DNA of 64,000 nucleotides from an uncultured Ignavibacteriota bacterium (GCA_903884005.1 CAISDA010000033.1:186001-250000), one strand, 5' to 3'. Shown: positions 1 to 56,756, counted from the stretch's first letter. Notes: generated by a model not told the origin, from the sequence alone. Translations and numbers: made by a program.

Positions 1-326
1 ATCACGCCGCCGCAATACGCATACAGTCGTCTGGTGGAGTCGACACGGTCCGCACCAAGCTGCACGCCTCCGCCATAGGAATTATGCTGCCCCGTGTATT
101 GCTTCGCATCCACGATGACGGCGGAATTCGCAGGCCACTCGAACGACGGAATCCCGAGTTCGGTATTGGCATTCGACGTCGCATATTTGCGGCCCAGCTC
201 GCCGGTGTTATACACGGTCTGATTCAACATTCCGCGTTTGTGTATGAGATAATCTTTTTCCATCTGCGCAGCGGCGACGTTTCCGAGCAGACAGAGAAGA
301 CATGCGAGCGCTTTGAATTTGCCCAT
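1..326 (-). CDS. Secreted protein of unknown function (3' part outside window)
   Basis: The frame is open from an ATG at 326 to the window edge, so only the first 108 codons are seen. The product starts with a Sec signal peptide (MGKFKALACLLCLLGNVAAA) and continues with a polar segment containing HKRGMLNQTVYNTGELGRK. A good ribosome-binding site (AGGAGC) sits 6 bases before the ATG. The gene begins 21 bases after the stop of the TonB-dependent receptor and is almost certainly cotranscribed with it, so a cell-envelope or surface role is likely. I do not recognise a catalytic domain in the visible part. Confidence 0.75.
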   Translation of the reverse strand, partial: MGKFKALACLLCLLGNVAAAQMEKDYLIHKRGMLNQTVYNTGELGRKYATSNANTELGIPSFEWPANSAVIVDAKQYTGQHNSYGGGVQLGADRVDSTRRLYAYCGGV

Positions 327-346
327 GTGTTGCTCCTGAAAAAAAA

Positions 347-33353: not shown

Positions 33354-34748
33354 TTACGATTCGATCTTATACCGTTCGATGAGGCGATACAATGTTGCAC
33401 GGCCGATCTTCAGCCGCTTCGCCGCTTCAAGGACGTTGCCGTGGGTGACTTTGAGCGCATGGCGAATCCCCTCTTCTTTCATTTTCTCGAAAGGCAGCAC
33501 GATGTCGTTGTCGGAAAAGAGAGACCGCAGAGAAGTTGTTTCACCGTCGCCGGAAGAAAAGGCCTGCACCGCCATCGGAAGATCGCTACATTGAATTGTC
33601 TCCTGCTCCGCCATCAGTACCGAGTGCTCAATGGCATGTTCGAGTTCGCGAACGTTGCCCGGCCACGGATACTCATACAACATTTTGAGCGTCTTGCGCG
33701 AGAATGAGTGCGTTGCCTTTTTCTGCTCGGCGCAGGATTTTCTCATAAAATGTTCCGCCAGAAGAAGTATATCCGCCCTTCGCTCCCGCAGCGATGGAAG
33801 CTGTATCATAAATGCCGACAGGCGGTAGAAGAGATCCTCTCGGAATGTCTTTTCTTTAACGCCGAGCATAAGGTCGCGGTTGGTTGCGGAAACGATGCGG
33901 ACATCCGTGGAAATGGTGACATTGCCGCCGACGCGTTCGAATTGTTTTGTTTGGATGATCCGAAGCAGTTTCGCCTGAAGACTGAAATCCAATTCGCCTA
34001 TTTCATCGAGAAAAATCGTCCCACCGTTCGCAAATTCGAATTTGCCGATCTTGCGCTGAATGGCTCCCGTAAACGCCCCGCGTTCATGCCCAAAAATTTC
34101 ACTCTCTAAAAGATCCCGCGGTAACGATGCGCAATTGACAACAACAAACGGCCCGGTCCGGCGCTTCCCGGTGAAATGCAGCGCGCGGGCAATCAATTCT
34201 TTCCCTGAACCGCTTTCGCCCTGGATGAGGACTGAGATGTCGCTTTCCTTCGCTTTGTTGACGAGCGCAAAGACGCTTTTCATCGTCCCGTCAACTGAGA
34301 CGATATTGTCGAACTTCAGTCCCTTCTGCAGCATCGCGCGCAAGCGTACTACTTCTCTGGCGAGATCGTGCATCTCCAGACAGTTCTTGATGGAGATCTC
34401 CAGCTTTTGAAAATCGATGGGTTTGCTGAAATAGTCGCTTGCACCCAATTTAAGGCTTTCGACAGCCACTTCAATTCTGCCCTGCGCTGAAAGCATGATC
34501 ACCGGCAGTTCCGGAAAACGCTGCTTCAAGACTTTGAGCGCATCAATACCGCCAATGCCCGGAAGCATGATGTCGAGGATGATGAGGTCCGGAGCGGTTT
34601 CCGCTTCGTCCAGGCAGGATTCCCCGTCACCGAACGTGCGCAGCGTGTACCCCCATTTTTCCCTGACCCAATGATCAAGGAGTCTCTGGATGGATTCTTC
34701 ATCGTCAACGACATAAATGGTACGATCTGCGTTGTTTATGCTCAGCAC
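33354..34748 (-). CDS. Sigma-54-dependent response regulator (NtrC family)
   Basis: The 464-residue regulator has a receiver domain (Asp59 in LILDIMLPG, Lys109 in FSKPID). Its AAA+ domain has Walker A GESGSGKE (177-184), the sigma-54 contact loop GAFTGA (224-229) and Walker B FLDEIGEL, with R-finger region SLRERRADI. A Fis-type helix-turn-helix closes it (AAKRLKIGRATLYRLIERYK). It drives open-complex formation at sigma-54 promoters. The receiver gene upstream overlaps it by 7 bases, and a histidine kinase gene precedes that, so the three form one phosphorelay operon. The operon follows the surface-fibre-like locus, whose upstream region has a sigma-54-like site and a dyad. Confidence 0.95.
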   Translation of the reverse strand: MLSINNADRTIYVVDDEESIQRLLDHWVREKWGYTLRTFGDGESCLDEAETAPDLIILDIMLPGIGGIDALKVLKQRFPELPVIMLSAQGRIEVAVESLKLGASDYFSKPIDFQKLEISIKNCLEMHDLAREVVRLRAMLQKGLKFDNIVSVDGTMKSVFALVNKAKESDISVLIQGESGSGKELIARALHFTGKRRTGPFVVVNCASLPRDLLESEIFGHERGAFTGAIQRKIGKFEFANGGTIFLDEIGELDFSLQAKLLRIIQTKQFERVGGNVTISTDVRIVSATNRDLMLGVKEKTFREDLFYRLSAFMIQLPSLRERRADILLLAEHFMRKSCAEQKKATHSFSRKTLKMLYEYPWPGNVRELEHAIEHSVLMAEQETIQCSDLPMAVQAFSSGDGETTSLRSLFSDNDIVLPFEKMKEEGIRHALKVTHGNVLEAAKRLKIGRATLYRLIERYKIES

Positions 34749-35128
34749 ATGCTCTCCCTCACCAGTGCCGTTGCAATAACGGATAAAAGATTTCTCATAT
34801 GAAATGGTTTGGTGAGATAATAATCGGCTCCGGCCTTATATCCGTCTGCGATCTCGGCGAGCTGGGCGCACGATGAAAGGATGACGAATGGCACGGCATT
34901 CATGGTATCCTGGGACTTTACCCACGTGCACAGCTCAATTCCGTCGACTCCGGACATCATCACATCGGAACAAATGAGATCGAAATATTCTTTGGCCAGG
35001 AACTGTTTTGCCTCGAGACCGTTTGTTGCCAGGGTGACGGCATAGCCCGCTCCGGACAAGACGTGCAGGAGAAGGATCTGCATGCTTTTTTCGTCTTCCA
35101 CCACCAGAACTTTTCGAGGTGTCATCAT
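34742..35128 (-). CDS. Stand-alone receiver domain protein
   Basis: This 128-residue receiver has the acidic pair in VVEDEKSM, Asp55 in CSDVMMSGVDG, Ser in ILSSCAQ and Lys in LTKPFHM. It lies between the kinase (5-base gap) and the sigma-54 regulator (7-base overlap). It could compete for phosphate as a sink or relay it to the regulator. Two adjacent ATG codons (35128, 35125) are possible starts. Confidence 0.92.
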   Translation of the reverse strand: MMTPRKVLVVEDEKSMQILLLHVLSGAGYAVTLATNGLEAKQFLAKEYFDLICSDVMMSGVDGIELCTWVKSQDTMNAVPFVILSSCAQLAEIADGYKAGADYYLTKPFHMRNLLSVIATALVRESMC

Positions 35129-35133
35129 ATGAT

Positions 35134-36201
35134 CTATATGGGAATGCGAACGGTGAAAATGGAACCCTTCGCTTCTTCGCTCTCGGCGTGAATCGTTCCG
35201 CCGTGCAATTCGACAAGATGCTTGACGATCGCCAAACCAAGTCCTGTCCCGCGTATCTGAAGGCGGGGCCGATACACGCGAAAGAACTTGGTAAAAATAA
35301 ATTGTATGTCTGAGGCCGGAATACCCATGCCATTATCTTTCACGGTCACTTCAAGACAGCCGTCGATGATACCGGATGAAATCGCAACAGCCCCTCCATC
35401 CTGCGTAAACTTGACGGCATTGCTCAAGAGGTTTATGATGATCTGCGTCATGCGCTCTTTATCGAATCGTGCGATGAGTGCCGGATGTTCACATGTCGAC
35501 GTCAGGGTAATGGACTTATTTTCCGCCTCCGTGATGACGAGTGAAATCGCATGAGAGATAATAGGAACGATATTCGTCTCTGTTTTTTCAATTTCCACGT
35601 GTCTGCTTTCTATCCGGGAAAGATCAAGCAGATCGTTGATCAGCTTTGCCAGCCGCTGCGATTCGTTGAAAATGATCCCCAAAAATTCCCGTTCTGTCTC
35701 CCACAGCATCTCCGGATCGATCAGTATCGTCTCGATAAAACCGAGGATCGAAGCAAGCGGCGTGCGCAATTCGTGAGAAACGGACGACACGAAATCACTT
35801 TTCATCTGCGTCAGATCCTCAAGCATCCTGACATGCTCATTTTGGCGGTCCCGTTCGCTGGTGAGCAGCGTATTGGCATCGAGCAGTTTCTGATTCAGCA
35901 TCCGGACATCGCGTTCCACTATGACGGCGTCGTCCTCGTCCTTCGCACGAATATGCGTCGGAGTCGGATCCACATCCTGCTTGATGAAGTCCGTCTCCTG
36001 GTTCAAATCTTGATCCTCTCGATCACGAGCACGGCCCGGCTCACGATCCCGGAACGCCAAATCAATGTCGGCGAACAGGCGGACAATCTCGGGCGGTATG
36101 GCATCACCGGCCCGATAATGCTTGTCGATAATCTGTTGCAGCAGCGCTGTATACATCAGTTCGCGGGCTTTCAGCGAGGTCACCATAATAGTAGCAATCA
36201 T
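35134..36201 (-). CDS. Cytoplasmic histidine kinase
   Basis: The 355-residue protein has no membrane segment. Residues 1-130 are helical, with an acidic/basic linker and a coiled coil (about 95-130). HisKA carries VSHELRTPLASILGF (His143). HATPase_c has NLLSNAVKF, DNGMGIP and GTGLGLAIVKHL. The C-terminus ends in EAKGSIFTVRIPI. With no sensor domain recognised, it probably needs a partner or senses through the N-terminal helices. It heads the kinase-receiver-regulator operon and lies 71 bases after the large outer-membrane protein gene, so it may be read through from the subunit operon. An ATG at 36186 is an alternative start; neither has a clear ribosome site. Confidence 0.9.
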   Translation of the reverse strand: MIATIMVTSLKARELMYTALLQQIIDKHYRAGDAIPPEIVRLFADIDLAFRDREPGRARDREDQDLNQETDFIKQDVDPTPTHIRAKDEDDAVIVERDVRMLNQKLLDANTLLTSERDRQNEHVRMLEDLTQMKSDFVSSVSHELRTPLASILGFIETILIDPEMLWETEREFLGIIFNESQRLAKLINDLLDLSRIESRHVEIEKTETNIVPIISHAISLVITEAENKSITLTSTCEHPALIARFDKERMTQIIINLLSNAVKFTQDGGAVAISSGIIDGCLEVTVKDNGMGIPASDIQFIFTKFFRVYRPRLQIRGTGLGLAIVKHLVELHGGTIHAESEEAKGSIFTVRIPI

Positions 36202-36272: not shown

Positions 36273-39140
36273 TTATTCGAGCACACCTTTTTTAATGATC
36301 TTGATCGTTCGGATGATCGGAATCACTTTGAAGACGGCGTTTTTGGTCTCGCCGGCAGCGACACCAATTGAAATATTATTCTTCTCGATCTGATAGTACT
36401 CGGGCAGATCGTCACTTGCGATGGACAACGTATAGTCTCCCGGTTTCAAATCGGGGAACGAAAAACTTCCCCTGACGTCGGTGACCTTTCGGTAGACGTC
36501 CTTGTTGTTTCTAAGTTCGACGAAAATTCCCTCCATCCCGCCGATATGCTGCAGTTTTTTCAGTGTCGAGTCCACGTATCCGGTATTCTGATATCCAAAG
36601 AGGTCAACGATGCCCGAGATCCTGCAGGCGGGAACGGCGGTGAATGCTACCGTTCTCTCTCCGCCCTTTGGCACATTCACTGTGATTGGATTATCCTGCA
36701 GCGTGATGCGGTCCACTCCCATCGTGGATCTGTCGATGAGCAGGTAATTTTCTCCCGGGGCGATACTCGCAAAAATAAATCGTCCATCCCGGTCCGTCAT
36801 GGTCACGAGGTCGCCGGACGAAATGATGACGTTCGAAATCGGCTTGCCATTCTCGTCTTTCAATGTGCCGGAAAGGATGCCGATATTATCGATGCGTCCG
36901 AGCGGCATGGAAAGCGGGAGGGAATATTCCAGCCCTCCGCTGAACCGGTCGTTCAGCTGGTTCGGATTGGAAATGTATCGACCCCGCAGCTGGATGTGGT
37001 GTCCATTGCCGATCTCGTATTGGAGCGATGATTCAAGAGTGCCGCTGGTCATGTCGCCCGCACCGAATTGCCGCGACACGTTGCCGTAGACGCGGAAATT
37101 CACGGTCTTGAAGAAATTCAGGAACGCGGCGAATCCCCCCATCAGTTGATCCGTCCGAATCGAATCACCCGGTTGATTCTGCTGGGCATAATCGATATTG
37201 ATCGAAACATTGCTGAGGTCGTTGAGCTGTACGCTGGCCTGAACACCGTACCGCCGCTGCAAGAGATCCACCGCCCGGTGCTCTTCGTTGAGGAGTCCAT
37301 ATTCAACCGAGGTGAGAAAATTCCAGCGGCTCGCCTGCAGACCGTTGCGCAGCTGGATGCTTTTTTGTTCGCGTGTGACGGATTGTCCAGGGAACACGAT
37401 GTTGTCGCTCTGCTCCCGGAAATACAGTGAGACAAGGTTGCCGTAGCCGGTTCCGGCCTGATAGAACGTGGAGCTGCCGCCCGATACCGTCGAGTCGTTA
37501 TTTAAATTGCGATTGTCTTTGCGTCCCGAAAATTCGATACGCATGTTGTTGTCGAAGAAATGGGAAAGATTGGCGGCGAACATATCCTGGTCTTTCACAT
37601 ATCCCGTAAACCGGCTCCCGCCCGAGAGCTTTTTCAGATCGTAATACGTGTTCTGGAAATTGCCTTTGAAGTCGATCGCGTGTCCGCTGCCGATCACGCC
37701 GTGTGCACTGCTCACCCCGTACTCCACGTTCAGCTCATGACGGGCGAAAGGGAGCATCGAGACCTGCACCGACGCCGCCGTGCTTTTTTCCAGGTAATTT
37801 CTTTGCAGCACGTGTGCGCTCGCTGAAACAGCTTCCGAGATCTTTGCCGCGACCGATGCGCCGGCCTGCTCATGGCGATCGCTGGACCAACGGTCATACG
37901 AGTAGTAGGAGGCCATCGATACATTGCCGATCGCATAGGACAACTCTGCGCCAGTCGCGTACTGACCGGCCTGCAGCAGCGGCGACAGCGAGAAGACCAG
38001 ATCGCCGCCGCGGAACTTGAAATTATCGTGCTGATACGACAGGCGGTATTCGTCGCGCTGGCCGTTCGCGAATCGATTTTGTGTGTTTGGGCCGCGTGCC
38101 AGAAAAATCAACCGATGCGTTTTCTCTTCGTCGAGAAAGCCGGCTCCCGATATTTCCCCCTCCAGCGCGCTGCCGTTCTCATCCTTCAGCGCCGATACCG
38201 TCATGATAACCGGAAAATATACAAAAGGAATCTCGGCGGTTCCGTGGCGCGGAATGATGTCCGACGACGCCGATGCCGTAGCAAGCACATCGCCCGAACG
38301 GGGAGATACGATTGCCGCTTCCAACAAGTGTGTTTCTTTTTTATCCACGTCGCCTGTCTGAACCGTTACGGCCACACCGACGCGCTGCCGCGGAGCAATC
38401 CGGAGCGAGTCGCCCTCATTTGAGATCGTGTACCCTTTTGAGCTCTTCAACGAAAGAACAACCGGCAGGGAAGTATTTCCCGTATTCCGGACCGTCACCT
38501 CAAACGCGATCTGCGTTCCGCCGATTACGAACGGTTTGGTTTTTGTGATCTCAATGTCATATCCCTCCTTGGGCTTGACATTGACGATGAATGTGGCAGA
38601 ATCACAATCCGTGACCACGGCCAGGGAACGCACGATGTAGACAATGGGGTAGGTGCCGGCAGCGGCATTCTTCGGGATGCTTAAAGGGATCATGCGCAGC
38701 AGATCGGATTGTTTCTTCACGAAAAAACTCTTTGCACGGGGGAAACGGAGCCATCCTGCCGGGGCGTTGACGGTTTCCGCATACCCTGTCGTCAATGGAA
38801 ATCGGCCTGACATTTTTGCAAGAATGATCTGTGCGGTTCCGGGATCGGCCGTGATGCCGTCGGGCTGAAGGTTCCTGACGGCAAACGTCGTCTCCGCTCC
38901 GGTAAGTGAATCACCCGGCTTGTGCCCTTGTGCGGCACGCGGGGAAGAAAACGAAAGAGAGTCGCCGCTTACAATGTCCGATGAGGAATCCGACCGGCGC
39001 ATCGTGCTGTCGGCCGAAGCCGCTGCGAAACGGCGGGCATGCTGTTTATTGGCTGCCGATAGCATAGTGATCGGCGCAGCGCAGAAGATCAGTATGGCAA
39101 TGAGGTAGGCGTTTCTATATGTTGTGATGAATATCGGCAT
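36273..39140 (-). CDS. Large outer-membrane protein with usher-like architecture
   Basis: The 955-residue product has a signal sequence (residues 8-30). Next come two Ig-like domains (about 60-310; the second resembles NEW3, with FEVTVRNTGNTSLPVVLSL), and a long region of alternating aromatic strands (about 330-755) that should form a beta-barrel. Two C-terminal CarboxypepD/SdrD-B-like beta-sandwiches follow (about 760-830, SGTLKDENGKPISNVI; and 845-940, TDVRGSFSFPDLKPGDYTLS). Barrel plus terminal beta-sandwich domains, behind a chaperone-like gene and four small secreted proteins, recalls fimbrial ushers. I found no diagnostic usher motif, so this is an inference from layout and context. Alternatives are an autotransporter-like or large porin protein. 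Confidence 0.7.
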   Translation of the reverse strand: MPIFITTYRNAYLIAILIFCAAPITMLSAANKQHARRFAAASADSTMRRSDSSSDIVSGDSLSFSSPRAAQGHKPGDSLTGAETTFAVRNLQPDGITADPGTAQIILAKMSGRFPLTTGYAETVNAPAGWLRFPRAKSFFVKKQSDLLRMIPLSIPKNAAAGTYPIVYIVRSLAVVTDCDSATFIVNVKPKEGYDIEITKTKPFVIGGTQIAFEVTVRNTGNTSLPVVLSLKSSKGYTISNEGDSLRIAPRQRVGVAVTVQTGDVDKKETHLLEAAIVSPRSGDVLATASASSDIIPRHGTAEIPFVYFPVIMTVSALKDENGSALEGEISGAGFLDEEKTHRLIFLARGPNTQNRFANGQRDEYRLSYQHDNFKFRGGDLVFSLSPLLQAGQYATGAELSYAIGNVSMASYYSYDRWSSDRHEQAGASVAAKISEAVSASAHVLQRNYLEKSTAASVQVSMLPFARHELNVEYGVSSAHGVIGSGHAIDFKGNFQNTYYDLKKLSGGSRFTGYVKDQDMFAANLSHFFDNNMRIEFSGRKDNRNLNNDSTVSGGSSTFYQAGTGYGNLVSLYFREQSDNIVFPGQSVTREQKSIQLRNGLQASRWNFLTSVEYGLLNEEHRAVDLLQRRYGVQASVQLNDLSNVSINIDYAQQNQPGDSIRTDQLMGGFAAFLNFFKTVNFRVYGNVSRQFGAGDMTSGTLESSLQYEIGNGHHIQLRGRYISNPNQLNDRFSGGLEYSLPLSMPLGRIDNIGILSGTLKDENGKPISNVIISSGDLVTMTDRDGRFIFASIAPGENYLLIDRSTMGVDRITLQDNPITVNVPKGGERTVAFTAVPACRISGIVDLFGYQNTGYVDSTLKKLQHIGGMEGIFVELRNNKDVYRKVTDVRGSFSFPDLKPGDYTLSIASDDLPEYYQIEKNNISIGVAAGETKNAVFKVIPIIRTIKIIKKGVLE

Positions 39141-39149
39141 TGGGATATT

Positions 39150-39956
39150 TTATATCGCGATCTCATATTCTGCTCCGAACACGTCGTCTCCGCCCGCATC
39201 GACGACGATAAGGGCCTTATACTTGCCGGCCGTTAAGGTGGACAGATCGATGGTGTTCCGCACCGAGGTCGTCGGAAAAAGACGGAACTTAGATCCATAG
39301 AACTTACCGCAGCTCGCACCGTCGAGTGTATAGATCTCGGCATAGCAGTCGGGACGGACGAACAACGTCCCCGTATTTTTCATGTCGATGACGAGGTGCT
39401 TCCCCTTATCATCTTTGACCAGTTCCGTTTTGGCAATGTCCATATCTTTCTTCCCGGTATTAAGGATGGTGGCGGACAATTGCACGGCGTATCGCATTGA
39501 CTGGCTGATGTTCATTTCCTTGCGTTTCTTTTTGCCGGAGAGCGTCGACTCGTCGCCATCCTTGTTCAATCCTTCAATCATCAGCACGCTCCAGTACGAG
39601 CCCTCCATCTTTTTTTGCGCTGAATCCATCGGCACGGTGATCACGTACGAAACGGTGCCGGTCGATCGGGGTGCAATCGTGATGACCGACGGCGTATAGG
39701 TGATCCACGCTGCGTTGGACCGCGTATGCGCCCCGGGCGGATTGTAGTAGTTGCTTCCGTCGGCCTGAAATGTGTAGTCTGTCTGATAGATCTTTGCCTG
39801 CTGCGGTTCGTCAGTTTCATTCCTGATCTGGATCGATCCTGTGGCTGATTCTCCCGTTTGCATCACCCTGTCGTTACTGAGATCGCTCAAGACGGCGATC
39901 TGAGAAAAGGAAATTTGTATGCCGAGAAGCAGCGCGAAGAACATTGTCTTTTTCAT
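39150..39956 (-). CDS. Periplasmic pilus-chaperone-like Ig-fold protein
   Basis: The 268-residue protein has a signal peptide (MKKTMFFALLLGIQISFSQ) and two beta-sandwich domains. Domain 1 (about 25-130) has SNDRVMQTGESATGSIQIRN and SNAAWITYTPSVITIAPRST followed by a VITVP strand; this 'W-x-x-x-xP-x-x-I-x-I-xP' layout is the conserved core of PapD-type chaperones. Domain 2 (about 165-265) is a second Ig-like unit ending in YEIAI. Such chaperones donate a strand to pilin-like subunits and deliver them to an usher, which would be the next gene, 9 bases on. The ATG at 39956 is the start just before the signal peptide; a longer frame to 40103 is antisense-like. Confidence 0.75.
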   Translation of the reverse strand: MKKTMFFALLLGIQISFSQIAVLSDLSNDRVMQTGESATGSIQIRNETDEPQQAKIYQTDYTFQADGSNYYNPPGAHTRSNAAWITYTPSVITIAPRSTGTVSYVITVPMDSAQKKMEGSYWSVLMIEGLNKDGDESTLSGKKKRKEMNISQSMRYAVQLSATILNTGKKDMDIAKTELVKDDKGKHLVIDMKNTGTLFVRPDCYAEIYTLDGASCGKFYGSKFRLFPTTSVRNTIDLSTLTAGKYKALIVVDAGGDDVFGAEYEIAI

Positions 39957-39960
39957 AATT

Positions 39961-40422
39961 TTACTGAGCCGTTTGTGTATAAGTGATTGTGAACGTATCG
40001 TTCCCCAATTCTGTTGAATTTCCCTGCGCGAACGTCGATGCTGCCTTGTATGCCAATGTCGCCGTGTGGTACGTGGAGCCATTTCCCGATGTACCACTAA
40101 CACTCACGATCAGGTCAGCGGCAGCCATTCCATTGACCAGGTTGATAATACCGGCGGACGAACCTAAATTTGGTGAGGTGGCTTGAACAGAGAGTGTGAA
40201 TTTCTGATTCGGGCAGCTTGTCTGTACTGAGATCTTTGAAAGCACCGTCATCCGTTTGTATGAAAAAGTGGTAACCGAATTCGACACGACGGTCATGCCG
40301 CCGGCGATCGTTCCCGTGGTGACACTCAGCGCGAGTGTGCTTTGGGATACCTTGATCGCCTGCGCATGGGTCAATGATGCACCGATAAGAAGACAAGAAA
40401 ATATGGTCAGCAGAGTCTTCAT
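39961..40422 (-). CDS. Small secreted beta-rich protein, subunit-like (4th)
   Basis: The 153-residue product has a signal peptide (LLTIFSCLLIGASLTHA) and a mature part of about 133 residues rich in Ser, Thr, Ala and Val, with alternating strands (AIKVSQSTLALSVTTGTIAG at the start, LTFTITYTQTAQ-like end). It contains a single mature Cys (TSCPNQKF). Its start overlaps the stop of the preceding subunit gene by ATGA. It shares with its three neighbours a V-S-Q-type first strand and an I-T-Y-T last strand. This suggests paralogous Ig-like subunits of a surface structure, possibly a tip or adaptor subunit because it is the last one before the chaperone gene. Confidence 0.7.
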   Translation of the reverse strand: MKTLLTIFSCLLIGASLTHAQAIKVSQSTLALSVTTGTIAGGMTVVSNSVTTFSYKRMTVLSKISVQTSCPNQKFTLSVQATSPNLGSSAGIINLVNGMAAADLIVSVSGTSGNGSTYHTATLAYKAASTFAQGNSTELGNDTFTITYTQTAQ

Positions 40423-40913
40423 TGATTTTTCATTTCAAAAATAATGTTGGGGGTGTCAGTGACCACCCCTTTGTCGGCGGTGATCTGTATCGTATACGAA
40501 ATCGTTGCCGATCCCTGCGATCTTCCGACCGTTAACAGGATGTCTTGCGCTGTCGTCGTCGCCAAAATTTGGGGAGTGGCGACTCCGGCGGTCGGATTGA
40601 GGACCTGGAGGTACACCTGAAACTTCGATGCCGCACTCAGGCGCGCGGTGATCTTCTGCGTTCCCCTGTTCGTGCCCCATTGAAGCGTCGTCGTCTGATT
40701 GGCGACCGACAGAGTGGCGACACCGGCGGATGTGCCGGCACCGGTGATCGTCGCGCTCACGGCACCCGACGTCTGCAGCAAGGCGATCTGACTGACTTGA
40801 AGCGTCACCGTCTGTGCTGCCGTCTGGGAATAACCGCTCTGAAACACGAACAGGAGGGCCGGAAGAATGACCATCGCGACGCGTGACGACCGATATGTTA
40901 GGTTTGCTGCCAT
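40419..40913 (-). CDS. Small secreted beta-rich protein, subunit-like (3rd)
   Basis: The 164-residue product has a signal peptide with a basic start and hydrophobic core (RSSRVAMVILPALLFVFQSG, then YSQ). The mature region begins TVTLQVSQIALLQTSGAVSA and ends SYTIQITADKGVVTDTPNII with a short MKNQ tail. It has no Cys. The strand pattern and size match the neighbouring genes, supporting a pilin- or fibre-subunit role. The ATG at 40913 follows the previous stop by 2 bases; a TTG at 40919 is the alternative. Confidence 0.7.
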   Translation of the reverse strand: MAANLTYRSSRVAMVILPALLFVFQSGYSQTAAQTVTLQVSQIALLQTSGAVSATITGAGTSAGVATLSVANQTTTLQWGTNRGTQKITARLSAASKFQVYLQVLNPTAGVATPQILATTTAQDILLTVGRSQGSATISYTIQITADKGVVTDTPNIIFEMKNQ

Positions 40914-40915
40914 AA

Positions 40916-41386
40916 TCAACTGTTCGTAAATGTGTACACGATCTTTGAAATATCTTCTTCCGACGAAGCGCGTTCGGCGGCGGGATCTATGCAGATTTCA
41001 AGATCGATGCTGCCCGATTTTCCGATCGTCGTCAGTGTGGCACCGGCTGCCTTCGTGTTCCGCAGTGCGACACCCTCTACATTTTTCGTCGACGAGCCGC
41101 CGAGTATCACGACCATCGTATTGCCCGTTGCTTCGAGGGAAATCTTTTTTTCGTCGGAGGTTGAAACCCAATTTAACGATGTCGCTGCCAAGGGCACCGC
41201 TCCCGCCAATTTGCCTTTTGGCGATCCGCTTTTGCCCCGATCCGGTAAATGGTCCAACGGCAAGTGGGATAATCCGGCTTTATTGATATTGAACACGTTT
41301 AATATGAGCGATTGCACGGCAACATTGTTTTGTGCTGCAACCGTCATCGTCGCAAAAATCGTCATGAGTAAGAGTGCTTTTGCCAT
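40916..41386 (-). CDS. Small secreted beta-rich protein, subunit-like (2nd)
   Basis: The 156-residue product has a signal peptide (MAKALLLMTIFATMTVAAQ). The mature sequence starts NVAVQSLILNVFNINK, has a basic Pro/Gly loop (DHLPDRGKSGSPKGK), and ends with acidic sequence and a final strand (SEEDISKIVYTFTNS). The terminal strand and a C-terminal aromatic pattern are shared with the other subunits. The ATG at 41386 was chosen because the signal peptide begins there; a TTG at 41434 would put 16 residues in front of it. It is separated from the first subunit gene by a hairpin. Confidence 0.7.
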   Translation of the reverse strand: MAKALLLMTIFATMTVAAQNNVAVQSLILNVFNINKAGLSHLPLDHLPDRGKSGSPKGKLAGAVPLAATSLNWVSTSDEKKISLEATGNTMVVILGGSSTKNVEGVALRNTKAAGATLTTIGKSGSIDLEICIDPAAERASSEEDISKIVYTFTNS

Positions 41387-41394
41387 AACTATCT

Positions 41395-41427
41395 GAGGCA
41401 GGCGCCCCGTGAAGGACACGCTGCCTC
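41395..41427 (-). promoter_or_regulatory. Intercistronic hairpin between subunit genes 1 and 2
   Basis: On the minus strand GAGGCAG pairs with CTGCCTC (7 bp), with an inner 4-bp CGTG/CACG helix and an AAGGA-complement loop. No T run follows, so it is not a standard terminator. It could stabilise or process the mRNA so that the first subunit is made in excess, as happens in many pilus operons. Confidence 0.5.
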
Positions 41428-41446
41428 TCCTCAAAGAAAAATGAAA

Positions 41447-41941
41447 TTAGTTTGCTGTCAACGTCATTGTTACTGTGCGGGCCGTGCTTGCCAACGCACC
41501 CGATGAAGCAAGGGCATCAAAGGTGTAGGTAATCACCTGGCTTGCATCGGCACCCGGACCGATAGCGGTAACGACGTTCTGCGCTGTGGCTCCCGAGATA
41601 TCAACATCACCGGAGCTTGTTCCCTTGGTGCTGGCAAGTTTCACTTTCAGGACATAACCCGTCGTGAGCGCGGTGTTGAGCTGCGCAGAGATCTTGGCAT
41701 TCGCTGCATTGTTGTGCGTGATGCTGTAGCTGGTTGAAGCGTCCGACACAACGGACAAAGCGTTCGTGCCGGCGGTACCGTCAGAGATTGTCAGGGCGGG
41801 AACGGTTCCCGTTGCCGCGAGCTTGTACACTTGCAGAACCGTCAGATTCAAACCCTGAGTGGCAGTGGCATTTGTCTGTTGTGCAAACGACATTGCAGAG
41901 ACCAGTGTCAAGGAAACTGCGATAAGGAGTAATTTTTTCAT
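41447..41941 (-). CDS. Small secreted beta-rich protein, putative major fibre subunit (1st)
   Basis: The 164-residue product has a signal peptide (MKKLLLIAVSLTLVSAMSFA, then Q) and a mature part of about 143 residues dominated by Ala, Thr, Ser, Val and Gly, with no Cys and few aromatics. Strands run from LNLTVLQVYKLAATG to ITYTFDALASSG and VTMTLTAN. It is the promoter-proximal gene with a good GAGG site, and is followed by a hairpin, which together suggest the most abundant product of the operon. The fold resembles DUF4402/coat-protein-U type subunits in size and composition, but I could not confirm a family. Confidence 0.72.
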   Translation of the reverse strand: MKKLLLIAVSLTLVSAMSFAQQTNATATQGLNLTVLQVYKLAATGTVPALTISDGTAGTNALSVVSDASTSYSITHNNAANAKISAQLNTALTTGYVLKVKLASTKGTSSGDVDISGATAQNVVTAIGPGADASQVITYTFDALASSGALASTARTVTMTLTAN

Positions 41942-42003: not shown

Positions 42004-42019
42004 TTCAATCACCGTGCCA
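42004..42019 (-). promoter_or_regulatory. Sigma-54-like promoter of the subunit operon
   Basis: The minus strand reads TGGCACGGTGATTGAA. The -24 element is perfect (TGGCACG) and the spacing is right, but the -12 element is TTGAA where TTGCA is expected, a mismatch at a conserved base. It lies 63 bases before the first subunit ATG, giving a leader of about 50 bases. A sigma-54 activator gene lies at the far end of the same gene cluster. Confidence 0.4.
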
Positions 42020-51399: not shown

Positions 51400-53100
51400 T
51401 TAATTGCATGCATCCGTCGTCAAAAGATAATATTGTAGCACGATCGGAGACACAGTAGCATCCACTCGAATCACCTGGATGTCGGCTCCGCTGATCACCG
51501 GCACGCCGTTGGCGTCCACAGCCAGAGTGGCTTGGTAGTCTTTTCCGTTGTATCTGCTGCTTACCACATAATTTCCCGCCTTCCGAAGAAAGAGCCGCGC
51601 TTCCCCGGTATTGCTCAATGTGATATTGCCCAAAATTCGATTGCCCATATATTGATATCCAGACTCATCGGATATCGTGACCACCGTGCCTCCGGGTATG
51701 ATCTCCTTGGTCGCATCGTTCGGACACTTACCTTTCACCAACACATCGTATATGCGGACATCGGCCGGCGCTTGATATTCGATCGCATTGGTGCCGGATG
51801 AAAGGGACTTCATCGCCGACAACCGAATGTCATCATTTCCCGCAACCCGCAAGTATGCATACTTGACATAACCTGCGGCAAATGGCAAGTAAGTGAAGGA
51901 TTTTGAATAGCCGATGTCTCGAACGGAAGAGACTTCCCCATAAAAGCCGAACGGTGTAATACCATCATTCACAACGAGCTCAATCGGCGCCTTGGTGAAA
52001 TCCCACGTATTGAAACTGGCACCTAAAGTAATAGTACTGGAAGTTGATTGGTATTGTTGGAAAAAGTTAAATGAAGTATTACCAGGTATTTGAATGTTTA
52101 AAAAGGCTGACCACCCGACAATATTAATGGCAACCTGTTTCACCGAATTGGATATTTTCGGTGAGGCAACAGAAACGTATTGAGCTTCACCCGTTTTCAC
52201 GAGCTGTCCGGTCGCGGGATCAGTATACCCCATCTGTAATTTATCACCCAGCACAAATGATGCGCCCGTTAAAGGATTTTTGAATGTATTATCGACCGGA
52301 ATAAAGACCTGGCTGCCGACGGGACTGGCAACCTTACCGGATGGATCCGTCACCGTGACTGACAGGGACAGCAATGTATTGGAGGTTGTAGTACCGTTTG
52401 TCACTACACCCTGGGGAATGAGTCCTGCCGCCTTAGGATAAAACACCGTCGTGGCAACGGTGAGCTTGCCGGTGAGGGCGCTGCCCGATGCGTCTTTTAA
52501 TATTGTGCCCTGCGGAATTGTGACCTGGCTTCCTGCAGTTGTCTGCACCGCGATCGGCGCCGTCGTCTTTCCCGTGTTATCCGAAGAAACTGCCGTCGGA
52601 GTGGACGTCTGCTCGATGCCCGCTGCGGCCATGTCCGTCTTCTTGACCATATTCACGACAAACACCTGGGGCCCGCCCGATGTGATCGTGATCGGATAAT
52701 CGACACTCATATATGCAGCCGATGTGATCTTGAGTATCAGTTTCACCGGGCTCGCAACCGAAAAAGTGGTGCCGTTCTGTATCGCAAATGTCAGGAAGCC
52801 GTGATTGACCGTAGCCGATGTCAGCTTGTTGTTGACCTCGTCTGTGACCTTGCCGGCGTCCTGGCCCTGAATTGCAACAGTGACAATTGATGAGGCCACG
52901 CCGCCTGTCACGACGTCATTCAGCGTCACGGACACCGTGTTGTCGCGTGTGATGGTGTTCACGATAACTTTTAGATCCTTGGTCGGATCGTTGATCTGGC
53001 AACCCGAGATCAGAAATATGGTAATTGCCGCTGCCGCCACTATCCTGGCCGATACCCTGGCCGATACCCTGGATGGAAATGAAATTCTGCTCTTTGTCAT
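51400..53100 (-). CDS. Surface or periplasmic lipoprotein of unknown function, copy A
   Basis: The 566-residue product has a lipoprotein signal (AAAAITIFLISGC). The mature part is Thr/Ser/Val rich, in successive Ig-like segments: about 45-160, a low-complexity linker at about 165-185, a CarboxypepD-like unit (GSQVTIPQGTILKDASGSAL), then segments to LQYYLLTTDACN. There is no enzyme motif. Residues about 320-420 differ strongly from copy B while the rest is nearly identical. The n-region of the signal is longer than in copy B because a 12-base unit is duplicated (RVSARVSA). It follows the barrel gene by 14 bases with AAGGAGA before the start. Confidence 0.8.
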   Translation of the reverse strand: MTKSRISFPSRVSARVSARIVAAAAITIFLISGCQINDPTKDLKVIVNTITRDNTVSVTLNDVVTGGVASSIVTVAIQGQDAGKVTDEVNNKLTSATVNHGFLTFAIQNGTTFSVASPVKLILKITSAAYMSVDYPITITSGGPQVFVVNMVKKTDMAAAGIEQTSTPTAVSSDNTGKTTAPIAVQTTAGSQVTIPQGTILKDASGSALTGKLTVATTVFYPKAAGLIPQGVVTNGTTTSNTLLSLSVTVTDPSGKVASPVGSQVFIPVDNTFKNPLTGASFVLGDKLQMGYTDPATGQLVKTGEAQYVSVASPKISNSVKQVAINIVGWSAFLNIQIPGNTSFNFFQQYQSTSSTITLGASFNTWDFTKAPIELVVNDGITPFGFYGEVSSVRDIGYSKSFTYLPFAAGYVKYAYLRVAGNDDIRLSAMKSLSSGTNAIEYQAPADVRIYDVLVKGKCPNDATKEIIPGGTVVTISDESGYQYMGNRILGNITLSNTGEARLFLRKAGNYVVSSRYNGKDYQATLAVDANGVPVISGADIQVIRVDATVSPIVLQYYLLTTDACN

Positions 53101-53114
53101 TATGATGATTCTCC

Positions 53115-53771
53115 TTAAAATTTATATGAAAGGCCGAGTGAGACAACGGGATAGAACTTGAACCAATTCAAGTTCGATGCAACAACAGCTTCCTGTTCGG
53201 GCGACGCAGAGGGCGCAAGCAGTCCGGTTGCCGTCATGGACACTTTCGGAGCGCCCTGGTAGTATGCGCCTACATCCATCACGAAGCCAAGCCCTTTGTC
53301 GCCCGCGGTCGGGTTGCCGATGCCGATACCGATGTAGGGAGCGACCTTGTTGAAGGCGAGGTCGATGCCGATCGTGCCGAGATTGTCCTTGTTATAGACA
53401 TCACCGCCGATCGTTTTTGAGATCGTCGGTATTGCCGTGACCACCGGCTTATTCAGATTCACGACAGCCCCCCCTGTCACATGCAGCGATGTCGATTGGA
53501 ACGGGTACCAGTCGCCTAACAGGGCCACCGATGACAGGTCCAATTTCGCGTTCATTTCATAGTCCTGTCCTTGCTGCACACCGGACTGGTACGTATAGCT
53601 GAACATCGAACCGCCCAACCGAAGGTTGAATGAAGGGCCGAACGATCTGTACACTTCAACATTCACACCAAGCGTACTGAGTTTAACCGATGCTGCATAG
53701 TCCTGAGCAAAGAGATTGCCGGACAGCAGAAGAAGGGTGCAGAGCGTTGCAACTGCTTGTTTTATTTTCAT
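53115..53771 (-). CDS. Small outer-membrane beta-barrel protein, copy A
   Basis: The 218-residue product has a signal peptide (AVATLCTLLLLSGNLFA). Amphipathic strands throughout (FNLRLGGSMFSYTYQ, FKFYPVVSLGLSYKF) and a C-terminal Phe give the profile of an 8- to 10-stranded barrel of the outer membrane. It differs from copy B at only about a dozen residues. The lipoprotein gene follows in the same operon, and the pair may form one surface complex. AGGTG lies 6 bases before the ATG. A structured leader precedes it. Confidence 0.85.
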   Translation of the reverse strand: MKIKQAVATLCTLLLLSGNLFAQDYAASVKLSTLGVNVEVYRSFGPSFNLRLGGSMFSYTYQSGVQQGQDYEMNAKLDLSSVALLGDWYPFQSTSLHVTGGAVVNLNKPVVTAIPTISKTIGGDVYNKDNLGTIGIDLAFNKVAPYIGIGIGNPTAGDKGLGFVMDVGAYYQGAPKVSMTATGLLAPSASPEQEAVVASNLNWFKFYPVVSLGLSYKF

Positions 53772-53854
53772 GCGACACCTTTTTGAATAGTGACAAATGA
53801 CCGTAGAACGTTGAATTAATTGACTCTTTGAACATCGTTGCTCTTAAACGAAAA

Positions 53855-53933
53855 AAGCCGCTATCGAACGCTTCACGCATTCTCCAGAGGCTTCATCACA
53901 GATTCCTTCCGCACACTTCTGCCTGTCTGGGAG
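53855..53933 (-). promoter_or_regulatory. Structured 5' leader with alternative folds, copy A
   Basis: On the minus strand the leader runs CTCCCAGACAGGC, then about 29 bases, then GCCTCTGGAG, GAATGC-GTGAA-GCGTTC and GGCTT with a T run. GCCTCTGGAG can pair with the upstream CTCC-AGA-GGC, or AAGCC can pair with GGCTT to make a terminator-like hairpin enclosing the GAATGC stem. The two folds share bases and exclude one another. The GCGTTC here versus GCATTC in copy B keeps pairing by a G-U pair. It lies 84-162 bases before the barrel ATG. Confidence 0.6.
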
Positions 53934-54262
53934 TTCCGTAGACAACAATCGTAACAGCTCATGCCGAAAATGTCTTTATCTGCAACACATGGTCCAGTGT
54001 TCACCATGAGCTATTGAATTATTGAACCAATGGAACGGAGCAAAAGTTCCCATGATTGTAAATACACGTAACTACCACCCGAAACATATCACCCGAAACT
54101 GCTCCGATTTACGCTTTTCAGGCGCATACGATAGCGGTATTCCTTTCATCCGAGGGCTGGGGTATTTTTTTTACCATGGGAGGAACGTGGAGAAGCGCAG
54201 ATTGTTTTGACGATAGTGTTGAGCGGCGATTTGTTGATGTGATGTCCAGACCGGATACACCC

Positions 54263-54296
54263 AAAAAAAAGCACCCGAAACGCAGGTTCCGGGTGC
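54263..54296 (-). terminator. Terminator of module copy B
   Basis: GCACCCGAAAC and GTTCCGGGTGC form an 11-bp stem with one mismatch and a GCAG loop (54271-54296), followed on the minus strand by eight T residues. It is nearly the same as the copy A terminator. Confidence 0.9.
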
Positions 54297-54396
54297 TTCA
54301 TGTTGGGCAGCTTCGGGGCAGGCACGGAAAGACGAACCCGTGCGCCGTGAAAACCCCTCTATTGTTTGTCTTAGTGCCGACCGACGTCAGCGCACA

Positions 54397-56085
54397 TTAT
54401 TTGTTGCATGCATCCGTCGTCAAGAGATAATATTGCAGCACGATCGGAGATACAGTAGCGTCCACTCGAATCACCTGAATGTCGGCTCCGCTGATCACCG
54501 GCACGCCGCTGGCGTCGACCGTCAGCGTGGCTTCATAGTCTACATCATTGTAGCTGCTGCGCACTGTATATTTTCCCGCCTGCCGAAGGAAGAGCCGTGC
54601 TTCCCCGGTATTGTTCAATGTGATATTGCCCATAATTTGATATCCCGTCTCATCGTACACCGTAACCACCGTGCCTCGGGGAACGATCTCCTTGGTCCCA
54701 TCGTTCGGACACTTCCCTTTCACCAACACATCGTACACGCGCACATTGGCCGGCGCTACATATTCCATCACATTGCTACTCGTGACAAGGAGCTTAGTAG
54801 CCGACAACCGAACGTCATCATTTCCCGCAACCCGCAAGTATGCATTCTTGTTTAAGGTTATACCCGGATAAATATTGATGGATTTTGAATAGCCGATCCC
54901 CCCAACGGAATAGACATCCCCCATAACGCCGTACGGTACATAAACAGAATTCACAACGAGCTCCATTGGCGCCTTGGTGAAATCCCACGAATTGAAACTG
55001 GCAGCTAAAGTAATAGTTGCGGATATTATTTGGTAGTCTTGGAAAAAGTTAATCGAAGCATTAAAGTAATTCGCAGTATTACTCAGTAAATTTAGTGGAA
55101 TGCTAGGCCAAATGGATGTAAAACCACCCAAAGCTAGGCCAACCTGTTTCACCGAATTGGATATTTTCGATGAGGTAACAGAAACGTATTGAGCTTCACC
55201 CGTTTTCACGAGCTGTCCGGTCGCGGGATCGGTATACCCCATCTGTAATTTATCACCGAGAACGAATGAGGCACCGGTTAAAGGATTTTTGACTGTATTA
55301 TCGACAGGAATAAAGATCTGGCTGCCGGCGGGACTGGCAACCTTACCGGATGGATCCGTCACCGTTACTGACAGGGACAGCAACGTATTGGAGGATGTAG
55401 TACCGGTTGTCACTACACCCTGGGGAATGAGTGCTGCCGCCTTAGGATAAAACACCGTCGTGGCAACGGTGAGTTTGCCGCTGAGGGCGCTGCCCGATGC
55501 GTCTTTTAATATTGTGCCCTGCGGAATTGTGACCTGGCTTCCTGCAGTCGTCTGCACCGCGATCGGCGCCGTCGTCTTTCCCGTGTTATCCGAAGAAACT
55601 GCCGTCGGAGTAGACGTCTGCTCGATGCCCGCAGTGGCCATGTCCGTCTTCTTGACCATATTCACAACAAAGACCTGGGGCCCGCCCGATGTGATCGTGA
55701 TCGGATAATCGACATTCATATATGCAGCCGATGTGATCTTGAGGATCAGTTTCACCGGGCTCGCGGCCGAAAAAGTGGTGCCGTTCTGTATTGCAAACGT
55801 CAGGAACCCGTGATTGACCGTAACCGATGTCAGCTTGTTGTTGACCTCGTCTGTGACCTTGCCGGCATCCTGGCCCGTAATTGCAACAGTGACAATTGAT
55901 GAAGGCACGCCGCCCGTCAGGACGTCATTCAGCGTCACGGACACCGTATTGTCGCGTGTGATCGTATTGACAATAACCTTGAGGTCTTTTGTCGGATCGT
56001 TGATCTGGCAGCCGGAGATCAGAAATAGGGTAATTGCCGCTGCCGCCGCTATCCTGGATGAGAATGAAATTCTGCTCTGTGTCAT
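54397..56085 (-). CDS. Surface or periplasmic lipoprotein of unknown function, copy B
   Basis: The 562-residue paralogue of 51400-53100 has the lipobox FLISGC and the same segment order. It is nearly identical to copy A up to about residue 315 (SNSVKQV). Residues about 316-420 differ: this copy has GLALGGFTSIWPSIPLNLLS, which copy A lacks. It converges again at KAYLRVAGNDD-like sequence and is highly similar to the end (TTDACNK). Sharp divergence in the middle with conserved ends suggests recombination or selection on an exposed segment. Function unknown. Confidence 0.8.
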   Translation of the reverse strand: MTQSRISFSSRIAAAAAITLFLISGCQINDPTKDLKVIVNTITRDNTVSVTLNDVLTGGVPSSIVTVAITGQDAGKVTDEVNNKLTSVTVNHGFLTFAIQNGTTFSAASPVKLILKITSAAYMNVDYPITITSGGPQVFVVNMVKKTDMATAGIEQTSTPTAVSSDNTGKTTAPIAVQTTAGSQVTIPQGTILKDASGSALSGKLTVATTVFYPKAAALIPQGVVTTGTTSSNTLLSLSVTVTDPSGKVASPAGSQIFIPVDNTVKNPLTGASFVLGDKLQMGYTDPATGQLVKTGEAQYVSVTSSKISNSVKQVGLALGGFTSIWPSIPLNLLSNTANYFNASINFFQDYQIISATITLAASFNSWDFTKAPMELVVNSVYVPYGVMGDVYSVGGIGYSKSINIYPGITLNKNAYLRVAGNDDVRLSATKLLVTSSNVMEYVAPANVRVYDVLVKGKCPNDGTKEIVPRGTVVTVYDETGYQIMGNITLNNTGEARLFLRQAGKYTVRSSYNDVDYEATLTVDASGVPVISGADIQVIRVDATVSPIVLQYYLLTTDACNK

Positions 56086-56099
56086 TAGGATGATTCTCC

Positions 56100-56756
56100 T
56101 TAAAATTTATATGAAAGGCCGAGTGAGACAACGGGATAGAACTTGAACCAATCCAGGTTCGTTGCAACGATCGCTTCCTGTTCCGGCGATGCCGAGGGTG
56201 CAAGCAGTCCTGTTGCCTTCATGGACACTTTCGGAGGCCCCTGGTAGTACGCGCCGATGTCCATCACGAAGCCGAGTCCTTTATCGCCGGCGGTGGGGTT
56301 GCCGATACCGATGCCAATGTAGGGAGCAACCTTGTTGAAGGAGAGGTCGATCCCGATCGTGCCGAGATTGTCCTTGTTATACACATCCCCGCCGATCGTT
56401 TTTGTGATCGTCGGTATCGCCGTGACCACGGGCTTGTTCAGATTCACGACCGCCCCTCCTGTGACATGGAGCGAGGTCGATTCGAACGGGTACCAGTCGC
56501 CCAACAGGGCCACCGATGACAGGTCCAGTTTCGCGTTCATCTCATAATCCTCCCCTTGTTTGACACCGGACTGGTACGTATAGCTGAACATCGAACCGCC
56601 CAACCGAAGGTTGAATGAAGGGCCGAACGATCTGTACACTTCAACATTCACACCAAGCGTACTGAGTTTAACCGATGCTGCATAGTCCTGGGCAAAAAGA
56701 TTGCCGGAGAGCAGAAGAAGGGTGCACAGCGTTGCAACTGCTTGTTTTATTTTCAT
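56100..56756 (-). CDS. Small outer-membrane beta-barrel protein, copy B
   Basis: The 218-residue product has the same signal peptide, strands and C-terminal Phe as copy A. Changes are conservative and scattered (for example VQQGQ to VKQGE, ISKTI to ITKTI, SNLNW to TNLDW). The lipoprotein gene follows after 14 bases, and the ribosome site AGGTG is shared. The near identity suggests recent duplication or gene conversion. Confidence 0.85.
   Translation of the reverse strand: MKIKQAVATLCTLLLLSGNLFAQDYAASVKLSTLGVNVEVYRSFGPSFNLRLGGSMFSYTYQSGVKQGEDYEMNAKLDLSSVALLGDWYPFESTSLHVTGGAVVNLNKPVVTAIPTITKTIGGDVYNKDNLGTIGIDLSFNKVAPYIGIGIGNPTAGDKGLGFVMDIGAYYQGPPKVSMKATGLLAPSASPEQEAIVATNLDWFKFYPVVSLGLSYKF

Follow-up and report, generated by a model that had tools for sequence, protein, structure and literature searches.

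A subunit-chaperone-barrel locus as an undescribed, widespread variant or analogue of the chaperone-usher system

In a 64,000-nt stretch of DNA from an uncultured Ignavibacteriota bacterium (GCA_903884005.1, CAISDA010000033.1:186001-250000; hereafter the window), we characterized a six-gene unit that is an undescribed, widespread variant or analogue of the chaperone-usher system. Sequence profiles and structural models suggest, with a probability of about 70% by our estimate, that the locus encodes a pathway dedicated to secreting and assembling a thin surface fibre, working in a chaperone-usher-like manner with a non-canonical barrel. We found no account of such a gene set in the open-access literature, and the chaperone-barrel unit carries no proper name. 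Chaperone-usher pili fall into three families and occur in Proteobacteria, Cyanobacteria and Deinococcus-Thermus (PMC4654587); to these the present unit contributes a relative or analogue that is itself widespread, with carriers in Ignavibacteriota, Bacteroidota, Rhodothermota, Verrucomicrobiota, Armatimonadota, Spirochaetota, Synergistota, Planctomycetota and other phyla. A connection between the Gram-positive WxL system and pilus chaperones may run through it, and its plugless barrel gives a means of asking what function the plug serves in ushers.

A conserved gene set and its distribution

The first-pass annotation had recognized the gene order of fimbrial operons (subunits, chaperone, barrel) in this region. 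This order holds: all six ORFs are present on the minus strand between positions 36273 and 41941, and the gene set recurs in relatives (Table 1). Gaps between neighbouring genes do not exceed 12 bp, and some neighbours overlap at ATGA-type junctions, so that the six look like one operon. The TTG start of s2 is uncertain, an internal ATG (MAKALLL...) being likelier, and the chaperone start was corrected from the GTG of a 317-aa form, which runs into the fourth subunit gene, to the ATG at 39956, four bases past the s4 stop.

Table 1 Coordinates of the features described (window positions unless a locus is named; domain limits in residues)
Feature	Coordinates	Strand	Remarks
s1, probable major subunit	41447..41941	-	long-N; 37 residues before conserved Gly
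s2, subunit	40916..41434	-	long-N; 35 residues before conserved Gly
s3, subunit	40419..40919	-	long-N; 30 residues by heuristic cleavage
s4, subunit, probable tip	39961..40422	-	short-N; 19 residues; no N-terminal donor-like segment
Periplasmic chaperone	39150..39956	-	268 aa; two Ig-like domains, WxLIP/PapD-like
Outer-membrane barrel protein	36273..39140	-	955 aa with signal peptide
Barrel protein, Ig domains	about 86-188, 194-296		model, Pfam
Barrel protein, barrel	306-749		model, Pfam
Barrel protein, C-terminal TTR-like domains	754-850, 863-941		model, Pfam
Candidate sigma-54 (-24/-12) site	42004..42019	-	TGGCACGGTGATTGAA; one mismatch; 62 nt upstream of s1
Histidine kinase	35134..36201	-	directly downstream; possible operon regulator, association only
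Response-regulator receiver protein	34742..35128	-	association only
NtrC-type sigma-54 activator	33354..34748	-	association only
Successive gene pairs	51400-56756	-	566+218 aa and 562+218 aa
Chaperone homologue, Chlorobiaceae	L055:8917-9774
Chaperone homologue, Ozemobacter	L075:8974-9792
PAS histidine kinase and/or LuxR-type response regulator, Bacteroidales	L061:4569-6740		upstream of subunits
GldM homologue	L061:13128-14732		535 aa, four domains
Deinococcus deserti plasmid unit	L192:6001-9292
Tandem units, Emticicia	L088:8430-18697
Tandem long-N subunits, Ignavibacteriota	L015:1-4900

Scanning the chaperone alignment against 84,980 genomes yielded 74 loci. The barrel gene lies directly 3' of the chaperone gene on the same strand in 71 of the 73 loci with enough sequence, a recurrence that makes the gene set more than a chance arrangement. 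The two exceptions are L055, where no barrel gene lies directly downstream of the chaperone homologue, and L075, which has no adjoining downstream barrel and carries barrel-like pieces on the opposite strand. Distance matrices of chaperone and barrel correlate across 51 loci (r 0.86; maximum 0.18 in 999 permutations), and subunit-like genes lie upstream and/or downstream in nearly all loci. Conservation of the neighbourhood in relatives, proposed at the outset as a check of the reading, is thus borne out.

The chaperone tree holds rows from 13 named phyla (Ignavibacteriota, Bacteroidota, Rhodothermota, Thermodesulfobacteriota, Myxococcota, Zixiibacteriota, Spirochaetota, Planctomycetota, Armatimonadota, Verrucomicrobiota, Synergistota, Chlorobiota and Pseudomonadota), to which a plasmid search added Deinococcota. 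With at least 13 phyla in the tree, the initial confinement to Bacteroidota/Ignavibacteriota proved far too narrow. The window chaperone clusters with Ignavibacteriota and Rhodothermota (support 100). Many carriers are metagenome bins; named strains belong to Mariniphaga, Draconibacterium, Thiohalocapsa, Pseudarcicella and Emticicia, the last with two tandem subunit-chaperone-barrel-subunit copies. Among 60 relatives of the source genome, close barrel matches are confined to a different family within its order, with none in its own family, which points to a patchy distribution; the other matches (E near 1e-4 to 1e-3) are weak and cover only the CarboxypepD part. Within the window's phylum, the chaperone profile matched 74 of 395 genomes at E <= 0.001, the weakest of which may be other Ig proteins. 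A Deinococcus deserti plasmid encodes a subunit, chaperone, barrel and second subunit in the same order; its barrel is annotated as a 'carboxypeptidase regulatory-like domain-containing protein' and its chaperone as a 'FimB/Mfa2' family fimbrial subunit, and both annotations appear to miss the system.

Sites as weak as the candidate sigma-54 site upstream of s1 arise by chance across the window. Among the 250-nt upstream regions of 48 loci, 11 have a site with at most two mismatches on the coding strand versus 0 on the other, which speaks for sigma-54 control in some members of the family, namely the Ignavibacteriota and delta-type groups; expression of the window operon may be sigma-54 dependent. 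In Bacteroidales, a PAS histidine kinase and/or LuxR-type response regulator precedes the subunits in L061, L063, L064, L073, L074 and L078. A GldM homologue with four domains lies 3' of the short-N subunit in L061 (Pfam was run on L061 only) and at the same place in L062-L064, L067, L070, L071, L073, L074, L077 and L078, about eleven Bacteroidales-type loci in which GldL was not seen beside it; this hints that the unit is coupled there to a gliding/T9SS-like motor part. Elsewhere in the window, two successive gene pairs look like a tandem duplication.

Chaperone and barrel in structural models

The chaperone model (AlphaFold2, alignment of 60 sequences) reached a mean pLDDT of 93.5 and comprises two Ig-like domains, with F1 at residues 120-130, a long loop, and G1 at residues 155-164. 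Its PapD-superfamily fold, together with W84 in 59 and P89 in 51 of the 60 members, confirms the two-domain Ig chaperone-like protein with a W-x4-P core that had been proposed from the sequence. The proline of strand D1 is invariant in all pilus chaperones (PMC4654587); the nine members without P89 include the Bacteroidota group L081-L088. The closest solved structure is the Enterococcus faecium WxLIP (9i25: Z 16.4, 230 aligned residues, rmsd 6.5, 13% identity), followed by a second WxLIP structure (9i1y, Z 15.7), the two matches representing the free form and the form bound to a long WxL protein. Pilus chaperones match over both domains as well (CfaA Z 12.9, YadV 12.6, FimC 12.5, CsuC 12.2, PapD 11). 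As modelled, the chaperone therefore has a PapD-superfamily fold that resembles Gram-positive WxLIP more closely than it does any pilus chaperone.

At the level of profiles, the family matches ten alternative-type chaperones collected from TcfC-bearing loci with a score of 59.6 (E 6.8e-8, 213 columns), compared to 18.9 for the reversed profile and at most 29.9 in 60 shuffles. Pfam returned only sub-threshold fn3_5 and WxLIP_PGBD for the window chaperone; among the 60 members, WxLIP_PGBD appeared in 20 and WxLIP_HBD in 6, all below cut-off, and a single-sequence PDB search gave no match. Residues invariant in all 60 members include S80, G119, Y121, W122, S123, M126, R155 and P228. Of these, Arg155 lies in G1 between hydrophobic residues 154 and 156, a position that we take to resemble that of Lys112 in PapD. 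The hallmark of non-classical chaperones is an arginine in F1 (Arg89 of CsuC/EcpB) that anchors the subunit C-terminus (PMC4654587); it is absent here, the position aligned with it by the profiles being Trp122 in 60/60 chaperones.

For the 955-aa protein, the model (pLDDT 86.7) and Pfam (CarboxypepD_reg at E 1e-12, plus weaker related folds) agree with the originally described succession of N-terminal Ig-like domains, barrel and C-terminal CarboxypepD-like domains. Several relatives carry extra SPOR domains at the C-terminus. We counted 26 strand segments in the modelled barrel. A plug is absent, with no between-strand segment exceeding 22 residues in 56 barrel members, and the N-terminal domains are of Ig type, a PapC_N-type usher domain not being present. 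PF00577 (Usher) gave no match to the window protein at E up to 1 and does not rank within the top 25 Pfam families by frequency in 30 barrel members, while the same model recovered ushers in 11 of 185 other genomes; the earlier remark that no diagnostic usher motif is visible thus stands. A single-sequence PDB search gave no match. We rejected a CooC_C identity, which stayed below cut-off as a protein scan, scored 29.1 against 29 in another comparison and appeared in only 3 of 30 members, with CarboxypepD_reg scoring far higher.

Structural comparison depends on which part of the chain is weighed. Foldseek places FimD ushers first for the whole chain (E 1e-13) because barrel and C-terminal domains (CTDs) align together. 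The comparison with ushers that had been suggested as a check gave a divided answer: FimD is the best whole-chain match and two usher-like CTDs are present, but plug, Usher domain and usher N-terminal domain are lacking. VIA-align, which weighs the barrel, places MtrB first (Z 20.7, 411 residues, rmsd 4.7), with PapC and FimD at about Z 16-17 (PapC 16.9); its alignment to FimD extends to residue 939 (rows 9fy9, 9fw9). Among the families collected for profile comparison, the barrel-only profile scored 60 against MtrB (46-63 in random half-alignments; about 180 columns), 33 against alternative ushers, 28 against LptD, 25 against PF00577 ushers and 24 against porins. Alternative and PF00577 usher profiles recognized each other with 99.3% probability, and neither recognized MtrB. 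When the CTDs were included, the score against alternative ushers was 60 (E 4e-6), colinear over barrel and CTD1; the MtrB profile matched neither the CTDs nor the N-terminal Ig domains. Judged by profiles and models, the barrel carries both MtrB-like and usher-like signal, the former being the stronger for the barrel alone.

Two subunit classes and a model of fibre assembly

The small operon proteins, 169 in all, fit one profile with a T-V-T-Y-T-like last strand. All four window proteins have signal-peptide-like N-termini and a beta-rich last strand, but the I-T-Y-T ending attributed to them does not extend to s3, which ends in IIFEMK. The closest relatives of s1 are tandem major-like subunits of Ignavibacteriota loci; in L015, five near-identical long-N copies stand in tandem, as if for dosage or antigenic variety. 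No named family was assigned to the four proteins by Pfam or NCBIfam, and Pfam searches with 41 subunits at E up to 0.1 returned no known pilin and no WxL family. Subunit profiles did not match alternative pilins, Fimbrial_CS1 (PF04449) matched in none of the genomes searched, controls included, and comparison with single E. coli Ecp proteins was uninformative. A match to the CfaE pilin domain (E 0.008) was not reproduced with a cleaner long-N alignment, and the short-N profile matched complement C3 and designed proteins, not CfaE.

The number of residues from the mature N-terminus, as assigned by a heuristic cleavage predictor that limits these counts, to a conserved Gly is bimodal: 15-24 in 50 subunits (short-N; mean 20.7, sd 2.2), 28-46 in nearly all others (long-N; mean 36.0, sd 3.0), and 25-27 in none. 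The extra segment of about 15 residues follows a phi-x-phi-x-phi pattern in 93 of 105 long-N subunits. Of 54 loci, 48 contain exactly one short-N subunit, whose gene immediately precedes that of the chaperone in 25 and comes last, after the barrel, in 23. Five loci have none; in three of them (L044, L046, L069), a short subunit seems on visual inspection to stand where one would be expected, with its cleavage site misassigned. MAFFT often matches the first strand of a short subunit with the N-terminal strand of a long one, and the strand lacking in short-N subunits is assigned from spacing. The previous division into one major and three further subunits is thereby refined to three long-N, donor-type proteins (s1-s3) and one short-N protein (s4), the probable tip. 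In chaperone-usher pili, each subunit is an Ig fold without its final strand, which the N-terminal extension of the following subunit supplies. The extension pattern and the single short-N subunit per locus fit such donor-strand polymerization with one tip subunit, as strand donation requires that one and only one type of unit, at the distal end of the fibre, be donor-less.

From these features, we infer the following pathway. Sec would carry each small protein across the inner membrane; once in the periplasm, the protein would be capped by the chaperone, which would donate its G1 strand (with alternating hydrophobic residues at 148, 150 and 154), the invariant Arg155 being a putative anchor for the subunit C-terminus. 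The complex would dock on the barrel protein, either at its N-terminal Ig domains or at its C-terminal TTR-like domains, and the chaperone strand would give way to the N-terminal segment of an incoming long-N subunit. Lacking such a donor-like segment, s4 could only start the chain and would become the distal tip, with s1-s3 forming the remainder, and the chain would presumably reach the surface through the plugless barrel.

The chaperone/usher-like reading of the first-pass annotation is supported by the PapD-superfamily fold, the whole-chain match to FimD and the conserved unit; between its two options, a highly diverged chaperone-usher system and an analogous route, the evidence is divided, with a chaperone nearer to WxLIP and an MtrB-like barrel that lacks plug, Usher domain and usher N-terminal domain. 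We do not class the unit as a chaperone-usher member, because the barrel shows no Usher-family match, no plug and no 24-strand build, and the chaperone lacks the arginine that marks the non-classical type. We tentatively consider an independent origin of fibre export, combining a chaperone from the WxLIP branch with a plugless barrel of about 26 strands and MtrB-like, not usher, ancestry, and spread over many Gram-negative phyla in which chaperone-usher pili are not known. It is also possible, though we would not presume it, that the unit is a true but extremely divergent member in which a homologous usher has shed its plug and replaced its N-terminal domain by another; the mechanism would be the same and only the ancestry different. 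The match to alternative chaperones, the whole-chain FimD alignment with two CTDs and the colinearity of barrel and CTD1 with alternative ushers favour this descent, whereas the barrel alone scores against ushers near the level of LptD and porins and well below MtrB, has about 26 strands and a plug in 0/56 members, and is paired with a chaperone nearest to WxLIP.

Two further readings dispense with the fibre. That the locus is a Gram-negative WxL system, its two-domain protein a stable structural adaptor and its barrel merely displaying a non-polymeric surface complex, would explain why free and WxL-bound WxLIP are the closest solved structures and why weak WxLIP domains recur in Pfam; we consider it unlikely, given that the subunits match no Pfam WxL model, that pilus chaperones also align over the whole two-domain protein, and that the division of subunits by N-terminal length, with one short subunit to a locus, agrees with polymerization. 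Less probable still is a conduit or porin of the MtrB/PioB kind, with the small proteins as accessory partners in the periplasm and no link to a fibre: although MtrB is the best structural and profile match to the barrel, none of the loci contains an ORF carrying three or more CxxCH haem motifs, a PapD-like chaperone is a constant partner, and the CTDs and N-terminal Ig domains find no match in MtrB.

Comparison with known systems

With alternative (alpha, CFA/I- and Ecp-type) and archaic (Csu) chaperone-usher systems, the unit shares operon logic, a two-Ig chaperone with detectable profile similarity, a barrel with two C-terminal domains, and an N-terminal extension on all subunits but one. 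It differs from them in the chaperone, where Trp122 replaces the F1 arginine and Arg155 stands in G1 instead, in a barrel of about 26 strands with Ig-type N-terminal domains and no TcfC/plug or Usher domain, and in subunits that are not recognizably homologous.

In the WxL system of Gram-positive bacteria, WxLIP corresponds to DUF916/DUF3324 (PMC10599100). Both domains of the window chaperone are closest in fold to this protein, with weak Pfam matches to both, whereas the window locus is diderm, includes an outer-membrane barrel and shows no WxL-domain match in its subunits.

The 26-stranded MtrB/PioB barrel resembles the window barrel in size, fold and profile, but the loci described here have no haem-protein partners, add Ig and TTR-like domains and lie in a different neighbourhood. 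The classical ushers FimD and PapC have a 24-strand barrel, a plug and a PapC_N-type N-terminal domain. Plug and PapC_N-type domain are missing from the window protein, which has about 26 strands and not 24, and yet the classical ushers are its best whole-chain Foldseek matches, with the PapC barrel itself aligning at Z 16.9.
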